From positions 1-64,000 of the forward strand of contig JAAVWC010000007.1 in assembly GCA_023910675.1 (NCBI GenBank): a stretch of DNA of 64,000 nucleotides, read 5' to 3'. The notes beneath the pieces are model-generated. The model did no database searches, was not told the origin of the DNA, and saw only the letters and a program-made list of their open reading frames with translations. This document shows, piece after piece, positions 33,785 through 34,268 of this stretch. The translations under genes and the position numbers were made by a program. The stretch's first letter is position 1, and each line of letters opens with the position of its first letter. Source of the DNA: Gemmatimonas sp. (GTDB lineage Bacteria > Gemmatimonadota > Gemmatimonadetes > Gemmatimonadales > Gemmatimonadaceae).

Positions 33785-34268
33785 CTGGTCGTGGTCGGGG
33801 TTGGCGGTGGTCGTCGGGGCACAGCCGCAACAGTCGGGGTACTGCCACTACGGTCGGGGTACCGCCACCACAGTCGGGGTCGATAAACAGTCGGGGTCCC
33901 GGTCGGGTCGGGCGCTACGCGGCGCTGGCGCGTCGGGGTCGGGGCTCAAATGTCGGGGTTGGGGTCGGGGCAGCCCCGACACTTTATCCCCGACCCCGAC
34001 CCCGACCCCGACCCCGACCCCGACCCCGACCCCGACCCCGACCCCGACCCCGACCCCGACCCCGACCCCGACCCCGACCCCGACCCCGACCCCGACCCCG
34101 ACCCCGACCCCGACCCCGACGCGCCAGCGCCGCGCCGCGCCCGACCCGACCAGGACCCCGACTGTGGGTCGACCCCGACTGTCGTGGCAGTACCCCGACC
34201 GTTGTGGCAGTACCCCGACTGTAGTGGCTGTGCCCCGACGACCACCGCCAACCCCGACCACGACCAGC
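33785..34268. repeat. Giant imperfect inverted repeat around a hexanucleotide array
   Basis: The left arm (33785-33944) and right arm (34106-34268) are about 160 nt each and near-identical when one is reverse-complemented. For example, GCTGGTCGTGGTCGGGGTTG at 33785 matches the complement of the end of the right arm. Each arm contains several TCGGGGTACTGCCAC-type subrepeats. The 161-nt loop holds the (CCCCGA)22 array and a small hairpin (GTCGGGGCAGCCCCGAC). The right arm ends exactly at the stop codon of the GMC gene, and the left arm ends 70 bp before the peptidase start. The transcript could form a very long hairpin. Confidence 0.9.
33988..34120 (+). repeat. (CCCCGA)22 hexanucleotide microsatellite
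   Basis: Twenty-two perfect tandem CCCCGA units plus one C. The complementary strand, which is the sense strand of the downstream peptidase, reads (TCGGGG)n, a strong G-quadruplex former similar in form to ciliate-type telomere repeats. Because the unit is six bases, length changes would not alter frame in an overlapping ORF but would change the loop length of the inverted repeat. Confidence 0.95.

Follow-up and report, generated by a model that had tools for sequence, protein, structure and literature searches.

A large palindrome between a GMC oxidoreductase gene and an S9 peptidase gene belongs to a dispersed intergenic repeat family of Gemmatimonas-like species

Introduction

Bacterial chromosomes carry several kinds of short palindromic repeat between genes. 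In the portion of PMC3733652 available to us, REPs are described as palindromes of 20–40 bp, most of them tagged GTAG or CGTC, and the TIRtron motif is given as GGGGWSAS. In Gemmatimonadota, repeats have been counted in five closed genomes, and their structure goes undescribed in the parts of that report covered here (PMC11237797). A literature search, which did not reach into supplementary files, returned no description in Gemmatimonas of the repeats reported below.

Here we describe a palindrome between two genes of a Gemmatimonas sp. contig. The analysed DNA, referred to as the window, is a stretch of 64,000 nucleotides (JAAVWC010000007.1, positions 1 to 64,000), and its genome is referred to as G000. 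We found that the palindrome belongs to a family of dispersed, non-coding palindromic repeats that lie between genes and are confined to a few Gemmatimonas-like species.

Results

The element is an inverted repeat with arms of 161 nt each, separated by 163 nt (Table 1), which agrees with the inverted repeat of ~480 bp with near-identical arms of ~160 nt described in the first-pass annotation of this DNA. The 22 CCCCGA units reported there are also present, and they do read TCGGGG on the sense strand, both neighbouring genes being on the minus strand. The intergenic region is not filled exactly as had been claimed: the element touches the GMC stop codon, but 38 bp (to a GTG start at 33745) or 68 bp (to the first ATG, at 33715) remain before the S9 peptidase. 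Repeat searches of the window detected the 20-bp subrepeats at 33813–33880 and 34172–34239; they also listed short perfect tandem repeats at 38349–38383 and 55291–55324 (GGCGGCGTTAGC in 2.9 copies and CTTGCTGCCGG in 3.1 copies). When the minus strand of 33714–34300 was folded as RNA, its energy was −487 kcal/mol vs −322 ± 7 for 100 shuffles (z −22.9), and the predicted fold of this strand, which is the one transcribed from both neighbours, is a single long hairpin. The window has no Rfam match at the gathering threshold. A scan of 33500–34500 for a hairpin followed by a T run, with loops of 3–8 only, gave 0 hits and no T run is seen by eye behind the palindrome, so the G+C-rich hairpin and U run of an intrinsic terminator are not found together here.

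Table 1. Coordinates in the window of the palindrome, its parts and the two flanking genes
Feature	Position	Strand	Basis or remark
GMC oxidoreductase (PF05199, PF00732)	34268..35884	-	TAG stop 34270-34268 touches the outer end of the element
S9/DPPIV-type peptidase (PF00930, PF00326), downstream	31538..33745	-	Gene call and profile match
Left arm (G-rich)	33784..33944	+	Sequence and inverted-repeat search
Right arm (C-rich on +)	34108..34268	-	93% complementary to left arm
Three tandem 20-bp units GTCGGGGYACNGCYACNACR, left arm	33813..33872	+	
Three tandem 20-bp units, inverted, right arm	34180..34239	-	
97-nt core, left arm	33813..33909	+	Gap-free register in 110 stacked arms
97-nt core, right arm	34143..34239	-	Gap-free register in 110 stacked arms
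(TCGGGG)22.2 tract (CCCCGA on +)	33988..34120	-	Loop-proximal; 100% matches; as assembled
Small central hairpin GTCGGGGCAGCCCCGAC	33964..33980	no strand	Read from sequence

The palindrome had been treated as a feature of a single locus; there are instead about 31 places with this repeat in its own genome. With the left half as query, at least 70 matches were obtained in G000 (40 of the 64 candidates scored), and manual grouping assigned these to the ~31 places, which are spread over many contigs and include at least two that are only short partial matches. We then scanned 30 genomes of the genus with a pattern of two consecutive units, allowing at most two mismatches; the backward pattern, used as a control, gave 1 match overall. 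The family is present in six of the 30 genomes, of which three are rich (161–181 matches: 81 + 80 in G000, 99 + 82 in G008 and 98 + 77 in G017), two have 37 and 28 (17 + 20 in G015, 11 + 17 in G005) and one has 2 (1 + 1 in G012, a single partial copy). The other 24 gave 0 matches to this pattern. A stricter unit pattern recovered 55 stretches from the named collections, all from C8_MAG_00034 (pond), RE-15aug16-119 (Gemmatimonadaceae) and Gemmatimonas sp. CoA8N_M110. Searches of viral contigs, plasmids and phages gave no match. A sequence search of 41 relatives (19 candidates scored per genome) found matches in 11. Five of these (G022, G026, G033, G034 and G040) lie beyond the six family genomes, with 1–3 matches each and best E values of 1.7e-4 to 9.7e-4, which we take as chance matches in G-rich DNA; G022 had 0 matches by the two-unit pattern, and the other four are outside the genus and thus outside the pattern scan. 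The combination had been called very unusual in bacteria. As to dispersed palindromes this does not hold, as they are common, but arms of 161 nt with a fixed 3 + 3 units are unlike the classical REPs of 20–40 bp.

For the comparison of copies, elements were located through the 20-bp unit and genes were called with a simple codon-usage caller. The 116 unit clusters, split by a rule that presumes that the G-rich arm comes first, yielded 58 full dyads (at least three units on both arms, span over 200): 25 in G000, 17 in G008, 14 in G017 and one each in G005 and G015. In the 58 clusters left out, a single arm qualified in 36 and neither arm in 22. The number of units is nearly fixed, at exactly 3 + 3 in 56 of 62 two-armed clusters, and no gene call overlaps any of the 58 full dyads. 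Open frames do cross the element on both strands; a protein-coding reading was dropped, as the 20-bp unit changes frame at every step.

The sibling species G008 and G017 carry the repeat at the same GMC/S9 junction as G000, and the longest hexamer run there is 2 in both. Runs of at least eight hexamers occur in 8 of the 25 full dyads of G000, in 1 of 17 in G008 and in 0 of 14 in G017. Judged from these sequences, the (CCCCGA)22 tract is a lineage-specific expansion of a loop-proximal tract; it would be a slippage-prone microsatellite beside the loop that has expanded in this lineage. Changes in unit number had been proposed to tune the S9 peptidase, and the absence of the tract from the same site in both siblings leaves a conserved role of this kind unsupported. 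The tract is a candidate G-quadruplex former by its sequence; formation is plausible and probably a by-product.

The placement of the element relative to genes was examined with its edge set 25 nt beyond the outer unit. The median distance from a stop codon to the element edge is 15 nt (at most 25 nt in 47 of 68), and that from the edge to a start codon is 64 nt (at most 25 nt in 11 of 45). Both neighbours were called for 55 full dyads; the two genes are convergent in 24 of these, codirectional in 19 and divergent in 12. The element is closer to the stop codon in only 11 of the 19 codirectional gaps, and the 12 divergent cases, in which no 3′ end is served, are left unexplained by a pure 3′-end role. 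Among gaps of at least 30 bp in G000, a full dyad is held by 10 of 24 convergent, 6 of 28 divergent and 9 of 58 codirectional gaps, numbers of which only the ratios are meaningful, since the stretches had been chosen for holding elements. Convergent gaps are favoured over codirectional ones (p 0.02); their difference from divergent gaps is not significant (p 0.14).

The reading that we consider on balance probable is that of a BIME-like, non-autonomous palindromic repeat that acts as a hairpin or insulator at 3′ ends and as a recombination site. In RNA, the arms would form a very long hairpin at transcript 3′ ends, which may mark or protect the end and separate the upstream gene from the next, as proposed for REP and BIME; insulation of the GMC gene from the S9 gene is a possible instance. 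The long, near-identical palindrome would also be a site of homologous recombination. The repeat would spread as a non-autonomous element, for which we found neither a clear target-site duplication nor a mobiliser.

We compared the 3′ flank of the GMC gene across genomes by taking close homologues (20 of 30 loci) and setting aside two with too short a tail. A long inverted repeat follows the gene in 11 of the remaining 18 (score at least 18; the best of 30 shuffles each reached at most 14), and by eye these fall into five sequence types, found in G000/G008/G017, in G042, in G021, in G005/G015 and in G013/G014/G016/G023. Of the others, G003 and G045 have a 12-bp hairpin and five have nothing above the shuffles; in G003, the GMC/S9 junction measures 113 bp and contains a short hairpin. 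In G042, G005 and G015, the gene call that follows GMC is not the S9 peptidase, so that what is shared in these three is the 3′ end of GMC and not the junction as a whole. The G042 palindrome at this end is itself dispersed, with 25 matches in G042 and none in 9 other genomes searched; its units measure 11–16 bp at one locus (L124:3120–3330). Inverted repeats with CTGATCACGCAGAG-type arms resemble one another at L126 (G021, behind GMC) and at L174:523–711 (G041) and are perhaps a further palindrome family.

At a second shared place, the G000 element at L028 3470, between genes of 174 and 259 residues, corresponds to a G042 palindrome at 3484733–3484894 with the same flanks. The third place is less exact: the G000 element at L029 5845 has as its counterpart a G041 palindrome of 16-bp units (L174 2820–3017), at a junction where G041 lacks one gene. 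This palindrome is also dispersed, with 36 matches in G041, and is absent from 11 other genomes searched. A clear inverted repeat (score above 10) was seen in 5 of 7 inspected loci of the private family of G041 and in 7 of 9 of that of G042; the other four are without one. Element sites are not always occupied: between homologues of the 97- and 306-residue genes, G042 has a gap of 56 bp, and G000 has one gene and two elements. The presence of unrelated palindromes of similar build behind the same genes is a hint that folding into this shape counts for more than the sequence itself. From the three junctions compared, we tentatively propose, while rating it somewhat short of probable, that each Gemmatimonas-like species has its own large palindrome families, built of inverted tandem units of 20, 16 or 11–16 bp, and that unrelated families share orthologous gene 3′ ends. 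They would then form a class of 3′-end element whose form and location are conserved, whose sequence is exchanged wholesale from one species to the next, and which spreads by means other than RAYT.

The arm statistics rest on the 56 full dyads of G000, G008 and G017, that is 112 arms, 110 of which enter the stacked core. This 97-nt core is free of gaps and consists of three GTCGGGGYACNGCYACNACR units followed by GTCGGGGTCTACAAACAGTCGGGGTCCCGGTCGGGTC with some variable positions; beyond it lie a variable GC-rich block and then the TCGGGG tract. Of the 20 positions, 15 are near-invariant in the two inner units, where positions 8, 11, 14, 17 and 20 vary, three apart; in the outermost unit positions 4 and 5 vary too, and in the innermost unit position 11 is mostly T. 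The 20-bp unit shifts frame, so this spacing is not codon wobble. In G000, the two arms of one copy match each other at the five variable positions more often than arms of different copies do (0.653 vs 0.511; 0 of 2000 shuffles). No significant excess of this kind is seen in G008 (239 of 2000) or G017 (89 of 2000). Orthologous copies agree at a mean of 0.66 (17 pairs) vs 0.55 for all pairs, a moderate agreement that points to fast turnover at these positions.

The near-invariant positions, together with the near-fixed number and spacing of units, are what would be expected if the 20-bp units were binding sites for a DNA-binding protein set two helical turns apart, the palindromy then stemming from the way the copies originated. 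The diverged copies of G005 (33 units) and G015 (41 units) agree with this in that positions 8, 11, 17 and 20 vary there as well, but they differ in detail: position 14 is near-fixed, position 18 is variable, and so are position 9 in G005 and positions 4 and 5 in G015. No protein partner can be named, and G041 and G042 have unrelated units of other lengths, so that a conserved partner would need to have switched specificity. We regard a binding array of this kind as unlikely.

The patchy distribution, the different dispersed palindromes of G041 and G042 and the location close behind stop codons would also suit a selfish, MITE-like repeat that has no host function and has settled behind genes where insertion is least harmful. 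Against it, a target-site duplication of at least 6 nt was found in 0 of 25 copies, the fuzzy edges leaving shorter ones possible; the longest word shared by the two flanks is 3–5 nt in these copies, with a mean of 4.04 vs 4.35 between copies. Neutral insertion would also not readily place unrelated palindromes at the same gene ends, and we judge an origin by selfish insertion to be improbable.

We also considered whether the element could be of REP/REPIN type, mobilised by a RAYT-like Y1 transposase that is present alongside it as a single copy. Matches to PF01797 occur in 8 of the 30 genomes, namely all five repeat-rich ones, with one Y1 transposase each, and 3 of the other 25 (56/142506, about 4e-4), but this co-occurrence may stem from shared ancestry, and G012, with its one partial copy and 2 pattern matches, has no Y1_Tnp match. 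The G000 protein is a RAYT relative, with Y1_Tnp over its cut-off and NF047646 at 59.7 bits, below the cut-off of 80; its gene lies in a TIRtron-like setting at L113 near 8350–8682 (C1:358350). The repeats that flank the transposase gene are different ones, GGGGTCAGAGTC, or GGGGTCAGAGCT in G005 and G015, and they fit the TIRtron motif given in PMC3733652. No unit of the element occurs in the 8.6–17 kb around the gene in the five genomes, so the gene is not flanked by the element itself, the arrangement expected of a REPIN. The transposase has its own dispersed repeat, AGGGGTCAGAGYC, with 91 matches in G000, 76 in G008 and 78 in G017, and further ones in G024 (51), G023 (21) and G013 (12), all of which have the transposase gene; there are 0 in G005 and 1 in G015, whose flanking repeat is a variant. 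G041 has 18 AGGGGTCAGAGYC matches and no transposase match.

The units themselves do not behave as REP hairpins of 20–40 bp. Only one of three single units folded as DNA (−7.1 kcal/mol, with −1 and 0 for the others), and two 68-nt unit arrays folded no better than shuffles. By eye, the arm consensus contains neither GTAG nor CGTC, and there is no unit hairpin against which to position a tag. Neither G041 nor G042 has a Y1_Tnp match, yet both carry dispersed palindromes, and this, with the foreign repeats at the transposase gene, is why we do not file the element as a REPIN; mobilisation by the RAYT-like protein appears quite improbable.

Gene order over the L028 stretch is the same in G000 and G042, and at this place G042 lacks the segments that lie between the G000 elements on C15 (a 376-residue gene and a 295–465 block). 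In G017, on contig C170, the stretch to the left of the first element is fused to the stretch to the left of the third, which is inverted, and the joint falls within an element. This joint is seen on a single contig of 11.5 kb in a fragmented assembly and may be chimeric. Compared with L028, C170 possibly contains an inversion of ~9 kb. In G005, G008, G015 and G017, many copies are no more than a few hundred bases away from the end of a contig, so such repeats seem to break assemblies, and they may cause chimeric joints; that the palindrome is itself an assembly artefact is very improbable, as three genomes, each assembled separately and two of them relatives, carry a full dyad at this GMC/S9 junction. 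An integron or cassette array was dropped as a reading, since the genes between elements look, from their translations, like ordinary chromosomal genes.

Discussion

Long palindromes are normally unstable in bacteria, and dozens of them are kept here with a near-fixed number of units. Should selection behind genes act on shape rather than on sequence, species in which the same gene is followed by unrelated families would make the function of such repeats testable, including RNA 3′-end formation, insulation and chromosome shuffling. The assembly breaks caused by the element also affect genome quality in this group.

Several known systems offer a comparison. MITEs and RUP-, ERIC- and Correia-type elements are like the element described here in being non-autonomous, intergenic and dispersed. 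Unlike them, it showed no target-site duplication of at least 6 nt in the 25 copies compared, and it has no known transposase with matching ends and has arms made of tandem units. The G-quadruplex-forming SSRs of Xanthomonas and Nostoc are likewise G-rich tandem repeats of short units in bacteria, as far as the available part of PMC4692102 describes them; the tract here differs in being the loop-proximal part of a large palindrome and in being long in some copies only. With REPIN/RAYT systems and TIRtrons (PMC3733652), these genomes share a RAYT-like Y1 transposase flanked by GGGGWSAS-type repeats, but the dispersed repeats of that transposase are of another sequence family than the element. 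BIMEs and REPs of enterobacteria, Pseudomonas and others are the nearest in kind: like them, the element is a dispersed extragenic palindrome in many copies, with inverted units and hairpins predicted in RNA. It differs in its 161-nt arms with 3 + 3 units, in the unreliable folding of single units and in having no dedicated transposase shown. We conclude that the element works most like a BIME-type palindromic intergenic repeat, one that is unusually large and regular.
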